DNA of 64,000 nucleotides, taken from NCBI RefSeq assembly GCF_900116145.1, contig NZ_FPAB01000001.1:310001-374000 (forward strand). Direction: 5' to 3'. The stretch comes from Streptomyces harbinensis. GTDB lineage: Bacteria > Actinomycetota > Actinomycetes > Streptomycetales > Streptomycetaceae. Of this stretch, positions 54,804 to 64,000 are shown in pieces; positions within the stretch are counted from its first letter, which is position 1, and every line of letters begins with the position of its first letter. The position numbers were made by a program, and so were the translations under genes. The notes below the pieces were generated by a model that saw only the letters and a program-made list of their open reading frames with translations, searched no databases and was not told the DNA's origin.

Positions 54804-55679
54804 ATGCCGGAGAACTCCCTGGCCGTGGTCATCGCCACCCGGAACCGCCGCAGCCGGCTCGCGCACACCCTGGAGAAGCTGCTGGAGCTGCCCGAGCGGC
54901 CGGCCGTCCTCGTCGTGGACAACGCCTCCACCGACGGCACCCGCGAGATGGTCGCCGCACGGTTCCCCGCCGTGCGCACCCTGGCCCTGCCGGTGAACCG
55001 GGGCGCGCTCGCCCGCAACGCGGGGGTGGCACTGCTGCCGCACCGCTACATCGCCTTCAGCGACGACGACTCCTGGTGGGAGCCGGGGGCGCTGGCCCGC
55101 GCCACCGGCGTCATGGAACGGGACCGGCGCGTCGGACTGGTCGCCGCGCACACCACGGTGGCGCCGCACGGCACCCCGGACCCGCTGAACCGGGCGCTGG
55201 CCGGCTCACCGCTGCGCGGCCCGGCCGGACTGCCGGGGCCCGCCGTACTCGGCTTCCTGGGCTGCGCGGCGGTGGTGCGCCGCGAGGCGTTCGTCGCCGC
55301 CGGCGGCTACCACCCGCTGCTGTTCTTCGGCGCCGAAGAGGCGCTGCTCGCCTACGACATGTCGGCCACCGGCTGGGTGCTGTGCCACCACCCGGGGGTG
55401 ACGGCGGTGCACGGCCCCGACCCGGGCCCGCGTCCGGGGCGCAGCACGCTGATCCAGCGCAACGAGACGCTCACCGCCTGGCTGCGCCGTCCGCTGCCGG
55501 TGGCCCTGCGGCACACCTGGGGCCTGGCCAGACGCTCGCCGGCCGATCCGGCCGCCCGGCGGGCCCTGGGGCAGCTGGTGGTCCGGCTGCCCGCCGCCCT
55601 GGCCGCGCGCCGCCGGCTGCCCGCCCGGGTGGAGGCCGACGTACGCCGACTGGAGCTGGCCCGTGACGGCGCCGGCTGA
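54804..55679 (+). CDS. GT2-family glycosyltransferase
   Basis: The 291-residue cytoplasmic protein has the GT-A fold: AVVIATRNRRSRLAHTLEKLLELP, VVDNASTDGT, the metal motif FSDDDSWWEPG (about 91-101) and a GAEEALLAYDMSATGW acceptor-side acidic segment. A nucleotide-sugar transferase for a cell-surface glycan or lipid is likely. The ATG is just after the SDR scar. The next gene starts before this one stops, and both share the same plan, so they are a tandem duplication. Confidence 0.85.
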   Translation: MPENSLAVVIATRNRRSRLAHTLEKLLELPERPAVLVVDNASTDGTREMVAARFPAVRTLALPVNRGALARNAGVALLPHRYIAFSDDDSWWEPGALARATGVMERDRRVGLVAAHTTVAPHGTPDPLNRALAGSPLRGPAGLPGPAVLGFLGCAAVVRREAFVAAGGYHPLLFFGAEEALLAYDMSATGWVLCHHPGVTAVHGPDPGPRPGRSTLIQRNETLTAWLRRPLPVALRHTWGLARRSPADPAARRALGQLVVRLPAALAARRRLPARVEADVRRLELARDGAG

Positions 55680-56571
55680 ACCCGCCCGCGTCACCGTCGC
55701 GATCATCACGCACGACCGGCGGCGGGAACTGCTGCACACCCTCGACCGGCTGGCCGGGCTGCCGGAGCGCCCGCCGGTGATCGTGGTCGACAACGGCTGC
55801 ACGGACGGCACCGCCGAGGCCGTCGCGCAGCGGTATCCGGAGGTCACCGTGGTGCGGCCGGGCGCCAACCTCGGTGCGGTGGGGCGCAACCTCGCCGCCC
55901 GGCAGGTGCGCACGCCCTATCTCGCCTTCTGCGACGACGACACTTGGTGGGAGGCCGGCTCGCTGGACCGCGCCGTCGCCGTACTGGACGCGCACCCGCA
56001 GGTCGCCACCCTGACCGCCCGGATCGTGGTCGAACCGGGCGGACGGGAGGACCCGATCGTGCCCGAGCTGCGCGACTCGCCGCTGCCCCGGCCCACCGGG
56101 CTGCCCGGGCCCGCCCTCGGCTCCTTCCTGGCCGGGGCGACGGTGGTGCGCACCGAGGCATTCCGCCGGGCCGGCGGGTTCTCGCCGCGGCTGTGGCTGG
56201 GCGGCGAGGAGGAACTGCTGGCGGCCGACCTGATGACGGCGGGCTGGTGGCTGGTCTTCGACGAGGAGATGCTGATCCATCACCGGCCCTCCGCGCTGCG
56301 CGACCCGACCCGGCGCCGCGCGGACGGAATCCGCAACACGCTGTGGTTCACCTGGCTGCGCCGCCCCCCGCGCTCCGCGCTGCGACGCACCGTCCAGCTG
56401 CTGGCCACCGTCCCCCACGACCGCACCACGGCCCGCGCCCTGGCCCGCGCACTGGCGGGGGCACCCTGGGTGCTGCGCGACCGCCGCCCGGTCCCGGCCG
56501 CGGTGGAGCAGCGGCTCGCCGCACTGGAAGCGGCACAGCGCGCCTCGACGGCGCGCCGGTACGTCGGCTGA
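55663..56571 (+). CDS. GT2-family glycosyltransferase, tandem paralogue
   Basis: The 302-residue protein repeats the layout of its upstream neighbour: VAIITHDRRRELLHTLDRLAGLPERPP, VVDNGCTDGT, FCDDDTWWEAG and GGEEELLAADLMTAGWWL. It starts at GTG 55663 inside the end of the first gene, giving a 17-base overlap. No membrane span is present. It converges on the heptose operon and may act on the same glycan. Confidence 0.86.
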   Translation: MTAPAEPARVTVAIITHDRRRELLHTLDRLAGLPERPPVIVVDNGCTDGTAEAVAQRYPEVTVVRPGANLGAVGRNLAARQVRTPYLAFCDDDTWWEAGSLDRAVAVLDAHPQVATLTARIVVEPGGREDPIVPELRDSPLPRPTGLPGPALGSFLAGATVVRTEAFRRAGGFSPRLWLGGEEELLAADLMTAGWWLVFDEEMLIHHRPSALRDPTRRRADGIRNTLWFTWLRRPPRSALRRTVQLLATVPHDRTTARALARALAGAPWVLRDRRPVPAAVEQRLAALEAAQRASTARRYVG

Positions 56572-56624
56572 GTGGCGCGCCCGCGCGGGGTATGCGGGTC
56601 CGGTGCCGTACCGGCCGGCCCGGC

Positions 56625-57620
56625 TCAGGCGGGGTGGGTGGGGCGGGCCGGTTGCCGGGTCGGGGCGGCCAGGACCTCCTCGATCGCGGTCCGCGCCTCG
56701 TCGGCGCCGATCCGCAGCAGCCGGGCGTCGGGGTGGTCGCCGTGCGGGTCGCCGGGGCGGACGGGGGCGGTGGCCGGGTCGGTGCCGGTGTCGGGGTGCC
56801 ACAGCGCCCGGTGGGCCGGGGCCGGGGGCGGGCCCCACAGGCGGGGGGAGACCGGGCCGAACAGGACCACCGACGGGGTGCCGTGCGCCGTCGCCAGGTG
56901 GGCGACCCCGGTGTCGCCCACCAGGACCGCCGCGGCGTGCGCGACCAGGGCCGAGAGCGCGTCGAAGGAGAGCCCGGACAGCACCGCGCCGGCCGGCAGG
57001 CCGGCCAGCGCGGCGACCCGGCGTGCCAGTCGCTCCTCCCCCGGGCCCGCGCTCACCACCACCGGGCGCGGGGCGAGCGCGGCAGCCACCGCGGCGAACC
57101 GTTCGGCGGGCCAGCGCCGGGCCGCCGCCTCGGCCCCGGGGTGGACGACGACGGCGCCGGGCGCGGGGCTCGGGGTGGCCGGGGCGGTGATGGCGACGTC
57201 CGCCGGGTCGGCGTTCATGCCGTGTCCGCGCAGCAGCCGGCACCAGCGTTCGCGTTCGTGCTCGGCGGGCCGCCATTCGGGCCCTGCCGCGCCGGCGTAG
57301 CCGATGAGGCGGCGCGGGCCGAGTGCGGCCAGGGGCCGCAGGCTCTGCGGTCCGCAGCCGTGCAGGTCCACGGCGAGGGCGGGGGCCGGGCCGCGCCAGG
57401 GGATCGCCGGCGGGACCTCGCGGCCGGGGGCCCGGGCGGGGACGAGCCCGTCCACGGCGCCGGTGGCCGCGACGGCGCCGGCCAGGGCGGGGGGTGCGGC
57501 CAGCAGCAGCCGGGCGGCCGGGTACGTGCGCCGCAGCGCGCGCAGCGCCGGGACGGCCGTCAGCAGGTCGCCGAGGCCGAGGGCGCGCAGGACGACGATC
57601 CGTTCCGGCGGGCGGCTCAC
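56625..57620 (-). CDS. GT9-family (heptosyltransferase-like) glycosyltransferase
   Basis: The 331-residue GT-B protein matches ADP-heptose transferases: ERIVVLRALGLGDLLTAVPALRALRR at the N-terminus, VVVHPGAEAAARRWPAERFAAV in the middle, and LVGDTGVAHLATAHGTPSVVLFGPVSPRLWGPP near the C-terminus, the donor-binding region. GTG 57620 overlaps the hldE stop by four bases. It is the last gene of the heptose operon. The acceptor is unknown in this Gram-positive. Confidence 0.9.
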   Translation of the reverse strand: MSRPPERIVVLRALGLGDLLTAVPALRALRRTYPAARLLLAAPPALAGAVAATGAVDGLVPARAPGREVPPAIPWRGPAPALAVDLHGCGPQSLRPLAALGPRRLIGYAGAAGPEWRPAEHERERWCRLLRGHGMNADPADVAITAPATPSPAPGAVVVHPGAEAAARRWPAERFAAVAAALAPRPVVVSAGPGEERLARRVAALAGLPAGAVLSGLSFDALSALVAHAAAVLVGDTGVAHLATAHGTPSVVLFGPVSPRLWGPPPAPAHRALWHPDTGTDPATAPVRPGDPHGDHPDARLLRIGADEARTAIEEVLAAPTRQPARPTHPA

Positions 57621-59053
57621 GTCCGGGAGCCGGCCGCCCGGCGGGCCAGGTCCGTGGTGGAGCGGCCCTCCAGGTAGGGCAGGACGAGGGTCTGGCCGTT
57701 CCACTCCCGCAACTGCGCGGCTTCCGGCAGGTCCCGCACGCTGTAGTCGCCGCCCTTGACCCAGATGTCCGGCCGCAGCCGCTGGAGCAGGGCCTGCGGG
57801 GTGTCCTCGCCGAATTCGGCGACCGCGTCCACGCAGCCGAGGCCGGCCAGCACCCGTACCCGGTCGGCGGCGGCGTTGAGCGGCCGGCCGGGGCCCTTGA
57901 GGCGGCGGACGGAGGCGTCGGAGTTGACGCACACGATGAGCAGGTCGCCGGTGCGGCGCGCGTTCTCCAGGAACTGGACGTGCCCGGCGTGCAGCAGGTC
58001 GAAGCAGCCGCCGGCCGCCACCACGGTGCCGCCGCGCGAGCGGACGGCGTTCGCCAGGGCCAGGATGTCCTCCAGCCGGTGCGGTTTGTCCGGGCGCGGT
58101 CCGGAAGGGCCGCGCACCGAGGGGTTTCTGCCGGTGTGCCAGATGGCGTGCTCGCCGGTGCCGCCGGCGGCGACGAAGGAGGCGGCGGCCTCGGTCGCGG
58201 CGCCGGCCGCCTCGGGCGGCAGCCCGCCGTCGGCGAGGACGGCCGCCGCCGTGGCGGCGAAGCAGTCGCCCGCGCCGCACGGGTCGCCGTCGCCGCGCGA
58301 GACCACCGGGATGTAGAGCGGATCGTCGCACCGGGGGCGGGTGAGGACGGCGCCCCGGGCGCCGAGGGTCACCGCGACCGACGCGCACTGCCAGCGTTCG
58401 GCGAGCAGCGAGCCGCGCCGGGCGTGGGCGCGCAGCGAGTCGTCCGCGTCCTCCACCGAGCCGGACCGGTCCGCGCCGTGCCGGCGCAGGAACCAGCGGG
58501 CCTCGCGTTCGTTGGGGGTGACCATGCGCAGCCCGGGAATGGGCCGGGTGCCCTGCGGGTGCGGGTCCCACAGCACCGGCACGCGCTGGGCGGCCCTCTG
58601 CACGGCGGAGCGCACCGCGGAGACGGCGCCCCGGCCGTAGTCGGCCACCAGGATGGTGCCCGCTTCCTCCAGGACGCGCAGCACTCGGTCGCCGGGGGCG
58701 CCGGTCCGGCCGCCGCCGTGGTCCATCCGCATCAGCGGGCGGCCTCCGGCGAGCACCCGGCATTTGACGGGCAGGCTGCCCTCCAGCGGCAGTTCGGCCA
58801 GCCGGACGCCGGGCGGCAGCAGGGAACGTACCGTGTCGCTCGCCTCGTCGTGGCCCAGCCCGGTCACCAGGATCACCTCGCGCCCGTCGCGGGCGGCCAG
58901 CGCGGCGGCGAGTCCCGCGCCGCCGGGGCGGCACCGCTCGTCGGCCACGTCGACCACCGGCACCGGCGCGTCGGGGGCGAGCCGGCCGGCCCGGCCGGTG
59001 ATGTCCCGGTCCAGCAGGACGTCGCCGACGACGACGATCGGCCGGCCGCTCAC
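57617..59053 (-). CDS. hldE: Bifunctional heptose-7-phosphate kinase / heptose-1-phosphate adenylyltransferase
   Basis: The 478-residue protein joins two enzymes. The ribokinase-type kinase domain (about 1-310) begins PIVVVGDVLLDRDITGRAGRLAPDAPVPVV and has the catalytic GDGDPCGAGDCFAA loop. The nucleotidyltransferase domain (about 335-478) has GGCFDLLHAGHVQFLENAR with the HAGH motif, and VKGGDYSVRDLPE. It makes heptose-1,7-bisphosphate and later ADP-heptose, which marks the ADP rather than GDP route. GTG 59053 overlaps the gmhA stop. Confidence 0.93.
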   Translation of the reverse strand: MSGRPIVVVGDVLLDRDITGRAGRLAPDAPVPVVDVADERCRPGGAGLAAALAARDGREVILVTGLGHDEASDTVRSLLPPGVRLAELPLEGSLPVKCRVLAGGRPLMRMDHGGGRTGAPGDRVLRVLEEAGTILVADYGRGAVSAVRSAVQRAAQRVPVLWDPHPQGTRPIPGLRMVTPNEREARWFLRRHGADRSGSVEDADDSLRAHARRGSLLAERWQCASVAVTLGARGAVLTRPRCDDPLYIPVVSRGDGDPCGAGDCFAATAAAVLADGGLPPEAAGAATEAAASFVAAGGTGEHAIWHTGRNPSVRGPSGPRPDKPHRLEDILALANAVRSRGGTVVAAGGCFDLLHAGHVQFLENARRTGDLLIVCVNSDASVRRLKGPGRPLNAAADRVRVLAGLGCVDAVAEFGEDTPQALLQRLRPDIWVKGGDYSVRDLPEAAQLREWNGQTLVLPYLEGRSTTDLARRAAGSRT

Positions 59054-59685
59054 GCCGCGTCCTCGGCCGGGACCACCGCGGGCTCGCGGGCCGTGCGGGT
59101 GGGGACGGCGAGGGCCTCGTCGAACGCCTCGCAGACCACGTGCAGGGCGACCAGGTGGGCTTCCTGGACGCTGGCGGGCGAGTCGGAGCGGATGGCCACC
59201 ACCGAGTCGGCCTGCGCGGCGAGCGGGTTGGGGGTGGGTCCGGTCATCGCCCACACCCGGACGCCGGCGGCGCGGGCGGCGGTGGCGGCGTCCAGCAGGT
59301 TGTCGCTGCGGCCGGAGGTGGACAGCAGCAGCGCGACGTCGCCGGGGCGGCCGTGGGCGGCGATCTGCCGGGCGTAGATCTCGTCGAAGCCGTAGTCGTT
59401 GCCGATGGCGGTCACCGCCGAGGTCTCGGCGTGCAGGGCGATCGCCGAGTACGGTCCGCGCTCGCCCGCGTAGCGCCCGACGAGTTCGGCCGTCATGTGC
59501 TGCGCCTGCGCGGCGCTGCCGCCGTTGCCGGCGGCCAGCAGGCGCCCGCCGGAGGCGAGCACCACGGCCAGCCTGCGGCCCCAGTCCGCGGCTTCGGCGA
59601 GTCCGGTGTCCGGGTCCTCGTGGAAGTCGAGCAGCGCCTGCCGGAGGGACTCGCAGTGGCGGCGTGCGGTGGCTGTGGGGTGCAC
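59050..59685 (-). CDS. gmhA: Sedoheptulose-7-phosphate isomerase
   Basis: The 211-residue SIS-domain protein catalyses the first step of heptose synthesis, sedoheptulose-7-phosphate to D-glycero-D-manno-heptose-7-phosphate. Family segments are LLAAGNGGSAAQAQHMTAELVGRY, ALLLSTSGRSDNLLDAATAA and the metal-binding VQEAHLVALHVVCEAFDE with its His. It is followed without gap by hldE. Confidence 0.94.
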   Translation of the reverse strand: MHPTATARRHCESLRQALLDFHEDPDTGLAEAADWGRRLAVVLASGGRLLAAGNGGSAAQAQHMTAELVGRYAGERGPYSAIALHAETSAVTAIGNDYGFDEIYARQIAAHGRPGDVALLLSTSGRSDNLLDAATAARAAGVRVWAMTGPTPNPLAAQADSVVAIRSDSPASVQEAHLVALHVVCEAFDEALAVPTRTAREPAVVPAEDAA

Positions 59686-59797
59686 GGGCGATCCTTTCTG
59701 TGGCGGTCTGTGGCGGTCGGGGTCGGGGGCGGGTTCTCCCGCCGGCCGGGTGGCCGGACGCGGTCGTGGCGCGCGGGGTGCGCGCGCCGCGGTGCGG

Positions 59798-61054
59798 TCA
59801 GACGCGGTGGACGGCGGGCGCCGGGTCGCGGACGCGCAGGTCGCGGTAGACGCGTTCGGTGGCCTCGGCCACCGAGGCCCAGCGGTAGCGGGTGAGGACC
59901 CGGCGGCGTCCGGCCGCGCCGCACGCCGCGCGCTGCGCGGGGTCGTCGAGCAGTTCCGTGACGGCGGCGGCCAGCGCCGCCGGGTCGCCCGGTGGTACGA
60001 GCCGTCCGGTGGCCGGGTCGGCGACCGTGTCCAGCTGCCCGCCGACGGCGCTGGCGACCACCGGTACGCCGCAGGCCATGGCCTCCAGCGGGACGATGCC
60101 GAACGGCTCGTAGGTGGCCGGGCACAGCACCAGGTCGCAGCCGCGCATCAGGGCGGGCACCTCGGGGCGGGGCACGGCGCCGGCGAAGCGGACGCGGTCG
60201 GTGACGCCGCAGCGCCGGGCGACGGCACGCAGCCGCCGTACCTCGGGGTCCCGGCCGGGTGCGGCGCCCGGGGAGCCGCCGGCGATGACCAGTTCGGCGC
60301 CGGGGACGCGGGCCAGCGCCTCGATGGCGACCTCGGCGCCCTTGCGCGGCACCAGCCGCCCGATGTGCAGCAGCCGGAACGGGCGTCCGTGCGGCGGCGC
60401 GTCCTGCGCCGGGCGGGGCCGGGGGGAGAACCACTGGGGGTCCACTCCGCACGGCACCACCCGCACCTTGCCCACCGGCACGCCGAGGGCGACGAGTTCG
60501 GTGACCTCGTCGCGGCAGGTCGCCACCGTGATGTCGCAGTGCGAGCCGATCTGCCGTTCCCAGTCGATGCGCCCGGGCGGGCTGGTGTCGGCGGCGCCCT
60601 GGTGGCGGCGCTTCACGCTGCCGAGCGCGTGGAAGGTGTGGACGAACGGGATGCCGAGGGCCCGGGTCGCCCACCAGGTGGCGATGCCGGACATCCAGAA
60701 GTGCGCGTGGGCCAGGTGGGGCGGTCTGCGGGTCCACTCGCGTTCCAGGAACTCGCTGAACTCCGGCATGTGGGGCAGCAGCTCGTCCTTGGGCAGGCTG
60801 TGCGCCGGCCCGGCGGGCACGTGCCGGATCTCCAGGCCGGGGCGGATGCGGACGGTGCGGGGCAGGGTGGCGCAGTCGCGGCGGGTGTAGACGGTCACCC
60901 GGTGGCCGCGTTCGGCGAGTTGTCCGGCCAGCTGGGCGACGTGCACGTTCTGGCCGCCGGCGTCGGCGCCGCCGAGTGCGGCCAGCGGGCTGGCGTGTTC
61001 GGAGACCAGGGCGATCTCCAGGGGTTCGGCCGGGCCGGGCCATGGGGGCCGCAT
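59798..61054 (-). CDS. GT4-family glycosyltransferase
   Basis: The 418-residue GT-B protein has the GT4 donor site: LLHIGRLVPRKGAEVAIEAL, VIAGGSPG, then CPATYEPFGIVPLEAMACGVPVVASAVGGQLDTV with the E-x7-E signature. The N-terminus (EHASPLAALGGADAGGQNVHVAQLA) resembles MshA and sucrose-phosphate synthase-type enzymes. It probably adds a sugar to the heptose-containing product. Its ATG shares a base with the stop of the upstream transferase; a 112-base gap follows before gmhA. Confidence 0.92.
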   Translation of the reverse strand: MRPPWPGPAEPLEIALVSEHASPLAALGGADAGGQNVHVAQLAGQLAERGHRVTVYTRRDCATLPRTVRIRPGLEIRHVPAGPAHSLPKDELLPHMPEFSEFLEREWTRRPPHLAHAHFWMSGIATWWATRALGIPFVHTFHALGSVKRRHQGAADTSPPGRIDWERQIGSHCDITVATCRDEVTELVALGVPVGKVRVVPCGVDPQWFSPRPRPAQDAPPHGRPFRLLHIGRLVPRKGAEVAIEALARVPGAELVIAGGSPGAAPGRDPEVRRLRAVARRCGVTDRVRFAGAVPRPEVPALMRGCDLVLCPATYEPFGIVPLEAMACGVPVVASAVGGQLDTVADPATGRLVPPGDPAALAAAVTELLDDPAQRAACGAAGRRRVLTRYRWASVAEATERVYRDLRVRDPAPAVHRV

Positions 61055-62019
61055 CAGCGGATCACCTCCTCGATCAGCCGGTCCCAGTCGGCGAGGAACC
61101 GTTTGAGGCCGTACCGGGCCAGCGCCGCCTGCCGGGCCGCCGCGCCGGCCTGCCGGGCGGCGTCCGGGTCGCGGGCGTAGCGGGCCGCCGCCTCGGCCAG
61201 CACCTCGGGCCGGGTGGAGAGCACCCCGGCACCGGGGGGTACCGCTTCCACCGCCTCGGTGGTGGCGAGGGCGACCACCGGCATGCCCAGGTGCATGGCT
61301 TCGACGAGGGAGAGCCCGAGCGAGGTCCAGCGCACCGGGTGCAGATAGACCCGGCAGCGGGCCATCTCGGTGTGCAGCCGCTCTTGCGGCAGCTCGCGCA
61401 CCCGGCAGCGGGGTTCGGGGATGCCGAGCCGGGCGGGCAGGTCAGCGGTACCCATGCCGAAGATCTCCAGCGGGACGGAGCGGGCCAGTTCCGGCAGCAG
61501 ATCGGTGCCGGTGGTCCGGCCGCGCCGCAGCGGCTCGTTGACGACGACGGCGGCGGCGGCCCGTTCGCCGCTGTAGCGGTGGCCGGGGTCGACGACGCCG
61601 TGTTCGACGACGGTGGTGGGGGCGCGGCCGTTGTCCCAGAAGAGCCGGTTGAAGTGGGTGACGTGGACGAGGGTGAGGTCGTCGCGGTCGGCGCACGGGT
61701 GCCGGGTGTCGGGGACGTTCCCGTCGGGGGCGTTGTGTTCCAGGTAGACGGCGGGGATGTCGCGGCCGGGGCGGCGCCCGCCGAGCCACCGTTCGGCCAG
61801 CTCCGCCTCGTGCGGGCGCTGGAGCACCACCAGGTCGACCGGTGCGTCGCGCAGTTGTTCCGGGGTGCGTTCGCGTACCGAGGCGGGCCAGTTCCAGCTG
61901 TCGGCCCGGCCGCGTCCGTCGGCGGTGCGCCCGGGGAGCAGCGGCAGCAGATAGGTGTGCGGGCCCTGGACGAACGCGGTCGTCCAGGAGCCGTGCACGT
62001 GCCACATGAGGATGTTCAT
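61054..62019 (-). CDS. Glycosyltransferase, GT4-like
   Basis: The 321-residue protein reads MNILMWHVHGSWTTAFVQGPH at the start and has a donor-side segment YLHPVRWTSLGLSLVEAMHLGMPVVALATTEA, the E-x7-like GT-B end signature. An HNAPDGNVPDTRHP segment near residue 95 is typical of a group often encoded in actinobacterial surface-glycan clusters. ATG 62019 overlaps the stop of the GT9 gene by four bases. Acceptor unknown. Confidence 0.87.
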   Translation of the reverse strand: MNILMWHVHGSWTTAFVQGPHTYLLPLLPGRTADGRGRADSWNWPASVRERTPEQLRDAPVDLVVLQRPHEAELAERWLGGRRPGRDIPAVYLEHNAPDGNVPDTRHPCADRDDLTLVHVTHFNRLFWDNGRAPTTVVEHGVVDPGHRYSGERAAAAVVVNEPLRRGRTTGTDLLPELARSVPLEIFGMGTADLPARLGIPEPRCRVRELPQERLHTEMARCRVYLHPVRWTSLGLSLVEAMHLGMPVVALATTEAVEAVPPGAGVLSTRPEVLAEAAARYARDPDAARQAGAAARQAALARYGLKRFLADWDRLIEEVIR

Positions 62020-63125
62020 GTCCGTTCCTCCGGTGCGGGTGCCGATGCCGGTGCGGGTGCAGCTGCTGTTGCCGGTGCCGTTGCCGGGCGGATGCCGGGG
62101 GCGGCGCTGACGGTCAGCCGCTCGACGGCGGCCAGGACCTCCTCGTCGGTGATGGAGTCCAGGCAGGGGTGGCCGTCGACCGGGCATTCGCGGGCCCGGC
62201 TGCCCGCGCAGGCCGAGTCCTGCCGGCCGAGCAGCAGGTGGGGGACGCGGTAGGGCAGCCAGCGCTCCGGGCTGACGACGGGGGCGAAGAGGCTGATGAC
62301 GGGGGTGCGGACGGCGGCGGCCAGATGGGCCGGGCCGGTGTTGCCCGCGATGGTGAGCCGGGCGCGGGAGAGCACGCCGGCCAGTTCCCCCATGTGGGTG
62401 CGCCCGCCCAGGTCCAGGGCGTGCCGTCCGGCGACGTGCCGGGTGAGATCGGCCTCCTGGGGGCTGCCGGTGACCACGACCCGGTGTCCGGCGGCGGCCA
62501 GCACCGCGACGGCCCGGGCGGCGCGGTCGGCGCTCCAGGTCCGGGCAGGGACGGCGGCTCCGGGGTGCAGGACGAGGTAGGGCTCCTCGCCGGTGAGTGC
62601 GCTGGTGTCCGGTGGGGTGCGCACGCGCAGTTCGCCGCGGTCGCCGTCCGGCAGCCGGAATCCGGCGGCCTCGGCGAGTTCCAGCGCGGCGGTGGCCTCG
62701 TGCCGGTGGGCGGCGCGGTGGTGGCGCAGTTGCAGCAGGGAGCCGGGGTAGTGCTCGCTGTCGGCGCCGATCCAGGGGATGCCGGCGAGCTTGAGCAGCA
62801 GGGCGGCGGGCAGCGGGCTCTGGTGCTGGGACGCCAGGATCAGGGCGCGGTCGTAGCCGCCGCGCTCGATGCGGCGCACGAGGTGGGCCACCTCCGCCGG
62901 GTCGGTGGCGGGGGCGGCCAGCCGCACCCAGGGCGCGTCGAACACCTCCACCCGGTCCACGCCCGGCAGCAGGCGGCCGGCGGCCTCGCCCAGCGGGCCG
63001 CAGAGCATGGTGACGGACCGGGAGCCGGCGGCGACGGCCCGGACGGCGGGTCCGGCCAGCAGGACGTCTCCCGCGCTGTCCAGCCGGACGACGAGGGTGT
63101 GCGGGAGCGTGCCGGGCGCTGTCAC
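62016..63125 (-). CDS. GT9-family (heptosyltransferase-like) glycosyltransferase
   Basis: The 369-residue GT-B protein has the GT9 start TLVVRLDSAGDVLLAGPAVRAVA, the central YLVLHPGAAVPARTWSADRAARAVAVL and the donor loop IAGNTGPAHLAAAVRTPVISLFAPVVSPERWLP. A Cys-containing tail (CAGSRARECPVDGHPC) is common to actinobacterial GT9 proteins, and the last 30 residues are Ala/Pro-rich. GTG 63125 overlaps the gmhB stop. A second heptosyltransferase gene in one operon suggests at least two heptose additions. Confidence 0.9.
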   Translation of the reverse strand: MTAPGTLPHTLVVRLDSAGDVLLAGPAVRAVAAGSRSVTMLCGPLGEAAGRLLPGVDRVEVFDAPWVRLAAPATDPAEVAHLVRRIERGGYDRALILASQHQSPLPAALLLKLAGIPWIGADSEHYPGSLLQLRHHRAAHRHEATAALELAEAAGFRLPDGDRGELRVRTPPDTSALTGEEPYLVLHPGAAVPARTWSADRAARAVAVLAAAGHRVVVTGSPQEADLTRHVAGRHALDLGGRTHMGELAGVLSRARLTIAGNTGPAHLAAAVRTPVISLFAPVVSPERWLPYRVPHLLLGRQDSACAGSRARECPVDGHPCLDSITDEEVLAAVERLTVSAAPGIRPATAPATAAAPAPASAPAPEERT

Positions 63126-63751
63126 GGGGCGCCCGCCGTGCCGGGGGCGGGCCGCAGCAGGGCGCGTACGGCGGTCAGCAGGTCGGGGGCGCGGTGGGGC
63201 GCGGCGGCGACCTCGGCGATCCGGGTCGCCGGGGTGGGTACCAGGACGCCGTGGGCTCCGGCGGCGCGGGCGGCGTCCAGGTCGCTGCCGATGTCGCCGA
63301 TCACGACGGTGTGGCGCGGGGCGACGCCCAGCCGGCGGCAGGCCGCCGCGACGAGGCCGGGGGCGGGTTTGCGGCAGCCGCAGCCGTCGGCGGGGCCGTG
63401 CGGGCAGACGGCCCAGACGCCGAAGGGGCCGAGCAGGGTTTCGACCCGGGTGCGGACCGCCGCGACCTCGGCGTGTCCGATGCGGCCCCGGGCGACGCCG
63501 GACTGGTTGCTGACCACGCCGAGGGCCACGCCGTGGTCGCGCAGCAGCGTCAGGGCGGCGCGGACCCGGGGCAGCGGCCGGACGAGGGCGGGGTCGCCGT
63601 TGTAGGGGACGTCCTCGATCAGGGTGCCGTCCCGGTCGAACAGCACGGCCCGGGGCCCGCGCCGCCGGCCGCCGGGGTGGAGCGAGGCCGGGCGGGAGGG
63701 ACCGGGCGGAAAGAGCCAGGGGCGGGCCCCGGCTGCCGAGTCGTCAGCCAT
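63122..63751 (-). CDS. gmhB: D-glycero-heptose-1,7-bisphosphate phosphatase
   Basis: The 209-residue HAD-IIIA phosphatase has the nucleophile motif FDRDGTLIEDVPY (about 38-50), the Thr/Ser motif VVSNQSGVARG, a zinc loop CPHGPADGCGCRKP and the acidic GDIGSDLDAA motif. It removes the 7-phosphate from heptose-1,7-bisphosphate between the two steps of HldE. An N-terminal extension of about 30 residues is unusual. Its ATG overlaps the end of the upstream transferase by eight bases. Confidence 0.92.
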   Translation of the reverse strand: MADDSAAGARPWLFPPGPSRPASLHPGGRRRGPRAVLFDRDGTLIEDVPYNGDPALVRPLPRVRAALTLLRDHGVALGVVSNQSGVARGRIGHAEVAAVRTRVETLLGPFGVWAVCPHGPADGCGCRKPAPGLVAAACRRLGVAPRHTVVIGDIGSDLDAARAAGAHGVLVPTPATRIAEVAAAPHRAPDLLTAVRALLRPAPGTAGAP

Positions 63752-64000
63752 GCCCCGGAGAGTTGCCCGATATGTCCGATTTAAACACCGGCTGCGGGGT
63801 GACTCCCCGGTGCCGGGCCAGCCCCAGCGCCCAGTGCCCCACCGCGACCGGCGGGATCGCCGCGCTGGTGAGCACCATCCGCCACAGCTCCGGCCCGGTA
63901 CGCGGCCCCGGCCGGATCCGCGCGGCGGCGAACTCGGCCGTGCCCGCCAGCCACAGCGCCCCGCTCATCAGCGCCGCCCGCCGCCGTCCCGTCCCCAGCG
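63744..64000 (-). CDS. C-terminal end of a membrane-associated glycosyltransferase-like protein (partial)
   Basis: The frame is open to the window edge and gives 84 codons. A hydrophobic-amphipathic region, RRRAALMSGALWLAGTAEFAAARI, is followed by LWRMVLTSAAIPPVAVGHWALGLARHRG. The TSAAIPPVAVxHWxxG pattern is the usual C-terminus of actinobacterial GT2 transferases with a membrane tail, so I infer one. It overlaps gmhB and so is the first visible gene of the heptose operon. Confidence 0.6.
   Translation of the reverse strand, partial: LGTGRRRAALMSGALWLAGTAEFAAARIRPGPRTGPELWRMVLTSAAIPPVAVGHWALGLARHRGVTPQPVFKSDISGNSPGHG

Follow-up and report, generated by a model that had tools for sequence, protein, structure and literature searches.

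A heptose-gene operon of Streptomyces harbinensis as a probable orthologue of the S. coelicolor cwg operon

Gene content and organization of the operon

We analysed a window of 64,000 nucleotides (positions 310001-374000 of contig NZ_FPAB01000001.1) from the 5.8 Mb genome of Streptomyces harbinensis, together with the sequence past position 64000 (locus L004, also given in window numbering). The genes of interest are listed below under the names of their counterparts in the cwg (cell wall glycan) operon of S. coelicolor, with activities as predicted from homology.

66494-67495 (L004:4494-5495), outside the window, upstream of cwgB: cwgA counterpart, UXS-like SDR, 333 aa, first gene of the operon
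64775-66439 (L004:2775-4439), outside the window, upstream of cwgC: cwgB counterpart, O-carbamoyltransferase, 554 aa
63744-64778 (L004:1744-2778), minus strand, 3' end in the window at 63744-64000: cwgC counterpart, GT2 glycosyltransferase
63122-63751, minus strand: cwgD counterpart, gmhB, D,D-heptose 1,7-bisphosphate phosphatase (HAD-IIIA; Pfam/NCBIfam, motifs)
62016-63125, minus strand: cwgE counterpart, GT9 heptosyltransferase-like (Pfam/NCBIfam, structure model)
61054-62019, minus strand: cwgF counterpart, GT4-like glycosyltransferase (Pfam/NCBIfam)
59798-61054, minus strand: cwgG counterpart, GT4 glycosyltransferase (closest solved relatives Tll1590 and MshA)
59050-59685, minus strand: cwgH counterpart, gmhA, sedoheptulose 7-phosphate isomerase (Pfam/NCBIfam, motifs)
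57617-59053, minus strand: cwgI counterpart, hldE, heptose 7-phosphate kinase / heptose 1-phosphate nucleotidyltransferase, with YLEGRSTT
56625-57620, minus strand: cwgJ counterpart, GT9 heptosyltransferase-like, GTG start, 4-base overlap with hldE
55663-56571, plus strand, convergent to the operon: cwgK/L counterpart, GT2 glycosyltransferase
54804-55679, plus strand, convergent to the operon: cwgK/L counterpart, GT2 glycosyltransferase

An earlier, sequence-only reading had placed gmhA, hldE, gmhB, two GT9 and two GT4 genes on the minus strand next to the end of another transferase gene. All are present, with Pfam/NCBIfam matches well beyond chance, and the gene interrupted at position 64000 is a GT2. 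The same reading had described all junctions but one as overlapping by 1-8 bases, and thus as translationally coupled, which is exact (C/D -8, D/E -4, E/F -4, F/G -1, H/I -4 and I/J -4 bases); the sole gap, of 112 bases, lies between cwgG and cwgH. Past position 64000 the operon runs 3.5 kb more, to 67495, and thereby gains the GT2, a carbamoyltransferase and a UXS homologue. The last GT9 gene (cwgJ) most likely starts at the GTG at 57620, rather than at the far-upstream start of the longest ORF.

No sigma-70-type promoters or terminators were found within positions 56400-64000, and no Rfam RNAs in the window. An NRPS cluster lies ~19 kb from the operon, with other genes in between; apparent gas-vesicle genes, followed by very large NRPS genes, are located upstream of the operon (L004:13943-17783, L005:3534-19998).

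Enzymes of heptose-nucleotide synthesis

HldE matches the families of both its domains (PfkB, 7.8e-15; CTP_transf_like, 2e-19) and, over its full length, PRK11316 (8.8e-85). GmhA matches SIS_2 (4.9e-23), and GmhB matches HAD-IIIA (1.7e-31) and retains its DRDGT and CxH/CxC zinc motifs; the catalytic motifs of all three proteins are retained across 73-81 homologues. These sequences support an enzyme set that would be complete for the conversion of S7P to NDP-D,D-heptose (isomerase, kinase, phosphatase and nucleotidyltransferase).

All three proteins score lower than their NCBI equivalog cut-offs (HldE, 285 versus 521 bits), and we therefore infer their substrate. Those scores, the conservation of N262 instead of D in one of the GT9 proteins, and the fact that SIS enzymes can be misnamed (NagS) would each fit a reading in which another nucleotide sugar is the product of the GmhA, HldE and GmhB homologues and other donors serve the GT9 proteins. 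We consider that reading quite improbable, since the three heptose enzymes share one block throughout and keep their catalytic motifs. Judged by its GAGHS motif, the strongest SIS_2 match in the genome (L001:1375-2232) resembles NagS (GlcNAc-6-phosphate dehydratase) and not GmhA, a caution against naming such proteins by domain only.

The fusion of the two HldE domains had been read as a sign of the ADP route. The fusion itself stands, but the nucleotide assignment is weakened by the motif (F/L)XXGRSTT (the STTR5 type), a mark of NTP-promiscuous heptose nucleotidyltransferases in which the R corresponds to acceptance of CTP and UTP as well (PMC11573728). The HldE of the window ends in YLEGRSTT, with the key R present and Y, versus F/L, at the first position; the R of GRSTT is found in 70 of 80 HldE sequences, including this one. 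ADP is therefore not certain.

The lack of an HldD gene, noted earlier for the window, holds genome-wide at the curated cut-off, with the extension past 64000 included: the best match to TIGR02197 reaches 103 bits versus a cut-off of 274.6. The heptose is therefore predicted to be the D,D form.

CwgA, CwgB and the glycosyltransferases

The best solved relative of CwgA is human UXS1, a UDP-glucuronate decarboxylase (316 bits, the next family reaching 104). Aligned to 2b69, CwgA carries the UXS-type TSE, Y, K and R at human positions 118-120, 147, 151 and 277, the active-site positions, with conservation in 27 sequences. As a candidate HldD this SDR was rejected (TIGR02197, 63.7 bits versus 274.6), its sequence being UXS-like. 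Genes of the UDP-glucose dehydrogenase family are present elsewhere in the genome. The cluster of Nocardia carnea is followed by an apparent gene for UDP-glucose dehydrogenase (L054:11423-12739), which fits a step from UDP-glucuronate to UDP-xylose. CwgB belongs to the NovN/GdmN/TobZ family of carbamoyltransferases.

Both GT9 proteins match PF01075 over the cut-off (7.3e-21 and 1.2e-26), and both GT4 proteins match their own family. Structure models of the GT9 pair (pLDDT 89 and 93) have WaaF, WaaC and a Veillonella GT9 among their nearest solved structures; none of the NCBIfam heptosyltransferase models scores over its cut-off for either protein. On homology, their donor would be heptose. TibC is also among the GT9 fold matches, which raises the alternative that one or both enzymes place heptose on proteins in the manner of TibC; this appears very improbable, as TibC is a poorer match than WaaC and WaaF, the carbamoyltransferase and five more glycosyltransferases would suit a longer glycan, and an acceptor adhesin is absent from the operon.

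A simple hydropathy scan gave no convincing membrane segments in the operon's proteins. Neither a transporter nor a ligase was found among its genes. A search for a flippase or polyprenyl-phosphate transferase gave none in the operon or its immediate flanks.

Relationship to the cwg operon of S. coelicolor

The cwg operon was published in 2002 (Hong, Paget and Buttner) as part of the sigma-E regulon and comprises SCO6179-6190 in S. coelicolor (PMC6767563; PMC5839063). There it is under sigma-E and vancomycin control and responds to wall damage, and its product as a cell-wall glycan is likewise only a prediction (PMC6767563). SCO6186 is listed as a phosphoheptose isomerase and SCO6187 as a bifunctional synthase/transferase, with transferases where glycosyltransferases or the carbamoyltransferase stand in the S. 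harbinensis operon (PMC5839063); the 'dehydratase' SCO6182 of that list is gmhB by position.

We compared our operon with this published gene list and with close relatives of S. coelicolor. All twelve cwg gene types are present in S. harbinensis, A-J being ordered on one strand and the last two GT2 genes inverted. In S. cellulosae and S. violaceoruber (L017 and L019) all twelve counterparts share a strand, with A-J ordered as in S. harbinensis and the two GT2 genes after them. The operon is thus probably the orthologue of S. coelicolor cwg, with a heptose-containing envelope glycan as its product. The system, which had been put forward as an undescribed surface glycan, has therefore been in print since 2002 (PMC6767563; PMC5839063). 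The operon itself is already known, and what we add is a prediction of composition and a promoter change. The literature found does not give the identity of the cwg product.

Distribution in Actinomycetes

The gmhB-GT9-GT4-GT4-gmhA-hldE block occurs in Streptomyces, Micromonospora, Salinispora, Arthrobacter, Pseudarthrobacter, Microbacterium and others (80 related loci); in Nocardia and Mycobacterium these genes recur with the GT4 pair shifted to the front. At E <= 1e-40, 53 of 150 genomes from the same genus and 68 of 297 from the class have an HldE match. Some of these matches may be tridomain NDP-heptose synthetases, which are reported from actinobacteria (Tang 2022). In a tree of HldE, sequences group largely by family, and that of the window falls among Streptomyces.

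Several of these loci have further features. In other genera a short-chain dehydrogenase gene directly follows hldE (L049:11491-12177, L031:11496-12197, L072:11350-12066, L054:9800-10489), and it is absent in Streptomyces; its product does not resemble HldD, and modification of the heptose or of its nucleotide form is a possible role. Arthrobacter has a second HldE-like gene, 33% identical, downstream of the first (L031:13728-15305, with similar places in other loci). In Actinomadura and Kitasatospora (L055, L057, L074, L084), gmhA-hldE occurs without the GT9-GT4-GT4 block, so heptose may serve another use there.

The distribution bears on whether the operon decorates a secreted small molecule of the septacidin or hygromycin type rather than the envelope. 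S7P-derived heptoses are already known from Streptomyces antibiotics, CwgB is nearest to antibiotic-tailoring enzymes, and the NRPS cluster is ~19 kb off. We nevertheless regard a secreted metabolite as unlikely: the operon has no scaffold gene, other genes separate it from the NRPS genes, the order of the core block is conserved in many non-related genera and follows taxonomy, and the S. coelicolor operon is induced by wall damage.

A sigma-B-type element upstream of cwgA

Just before cwgA, on the minus strand, lies the element GTTT-N15-GGGTAC (67526-67550 in window numbering; L004:5526-5550). GTTT-N15/16-GGGTAC precedes cwgA in S. harbinensis and in loci L006-L011 and L016, and L012 and L014 show a variant with GATT; the element stands before cwgA in nine species. 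Across the S. harbinensis genome the GTTT form occurs 6 times and the extended form GTTT-N14-16-GGGTACYTG once. Several mapped S. coelicolor SigB-type promoters share this form (for example GTTTGC-N14-GGGTAC; PMC8346170), and six SigB-family factors score over the cut-off in the genome. Transcription of cwg in the S. harbinensis clade probably starts at this sigma-B-type promoter, whose activity we infer from sequence.

The element is absent from the S. coelicolor-type loci that include the upstream region (L017, L019, L021-L025 and L027). None of the loci examined has the exact sigma-E site published for S. coelicolor; the single sigma-E-like match of the S. harbinensis locus (AAAAAC-N18-CGTCCG) shares bases with the sigma-B-type element, and relatives do not conserve it. 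No clear cse set, as in sigE-cseABC, was seen in the ECF neighbourhoods inspected in the S. harbinensis genome. In S. coelicolor, cwgA is salt-induced (PMC13011467). It is possible that cwg has switched stress regulons, with sigma-E in S. coelicolor versus a sigma-B-type factor in the S. harbinensis clade. A sigma-E promoter is a regulatory trait and is not decisive for orthology.

Proposed product

In the pathway that we propose for the cwg glycan, CwgA would convert UDP-glucuronate to UDP-xylose, and the glycosyltransferases (two GT9, two GT4, three GT2) would assemble, in the cytosol or on the inner side of the membrane, an oligosaccharide that contains heptose. CwgB would O-carbamoylate it, possibly on the heptose, like WapO in the Pseudomonas LPS core, and machinery encoded elsewhere would export it to the cell envelope. 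The predicted composition is D,D-heptose, xylose and O-carbamoyl, and the earlier suggestion of an acceptor other than LPS is supported. The literature found contains no demonstration of heptose in a Streptomyces envelope. We tentatively advance a fuller proposal, in which the long-studied operon would make a D,D-heptose/xylose oligosaccharide that bears carbamoyl groups, belongs to the Gram-positive envelope, is widely conserved in Actinomycetes, has moved between stress regulons and is a counterpart of the LPS inner core.

A role in heptose signalling had also been suggested. In such a system the signal would be NDP-heptose itself, a type of molecule that acts as an agonist of ALPK1 in animals. 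Nothing in the operon supports such a role, as it has no receptor, sensor or export gene and its many glycosyltransferases point to an oligosaccharide, and we find the suggestion scarcely credible.

Since 2002 the literature has named cwg as a target in the response that Streptomyces mounts to vancomycin and other wall-active antibiotics, and the predicted composition makes the question of its product testable by ordinary sugar analysis. If true, it would reveal a use for heptose in Gram-positive envelopes, at a time when NDP-heptoses are known as immune agonists.

Comparison with known systems

The closest system is cwg of S. coelicolor, which shares the twelve gene types, their order, the placement of gmhA and hldE and a promoter, predicted in S. 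harbinensis, at the first gene; S. harbinensis differs in the inversion of its last two GT2 genes and in having a sigma-B-type element before cwgA with no clear sigma-E site. With the LPS inner-core pathway (GmhA, HldE, GmhB, HldD, WaaC and WaaF) the operon shares the nucleotide-heptose enzymes and two GT9 proteins, but it lacks HldD, it belongs to a Gram-positive host without LPS, and its GT9 proteins are only about 18-19% identical to WaaC and WaaF. The Pseudomonas system likewise has a carbamoyltransferase within one genetic neighbourhood, WapO being the putative enzyme for the heptose of the core (PMC8005017). By analogy, CwgB recalls WapO.

The heptose of septacidin and hygromycin B is reportedly derived from S7P (Tang 2018). 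These pathways and the NDP-heptose synthetases (Tang 2022) would share with cwg an actinobacterial, S7P-derived heptose. In septacidin and hygromycin B that heptose ends in an antibiotic, whereas cwg has no scaffold gene; and unlike the tridomain-fusion synthetases, cwg encodes its isomerase and HldE separately.
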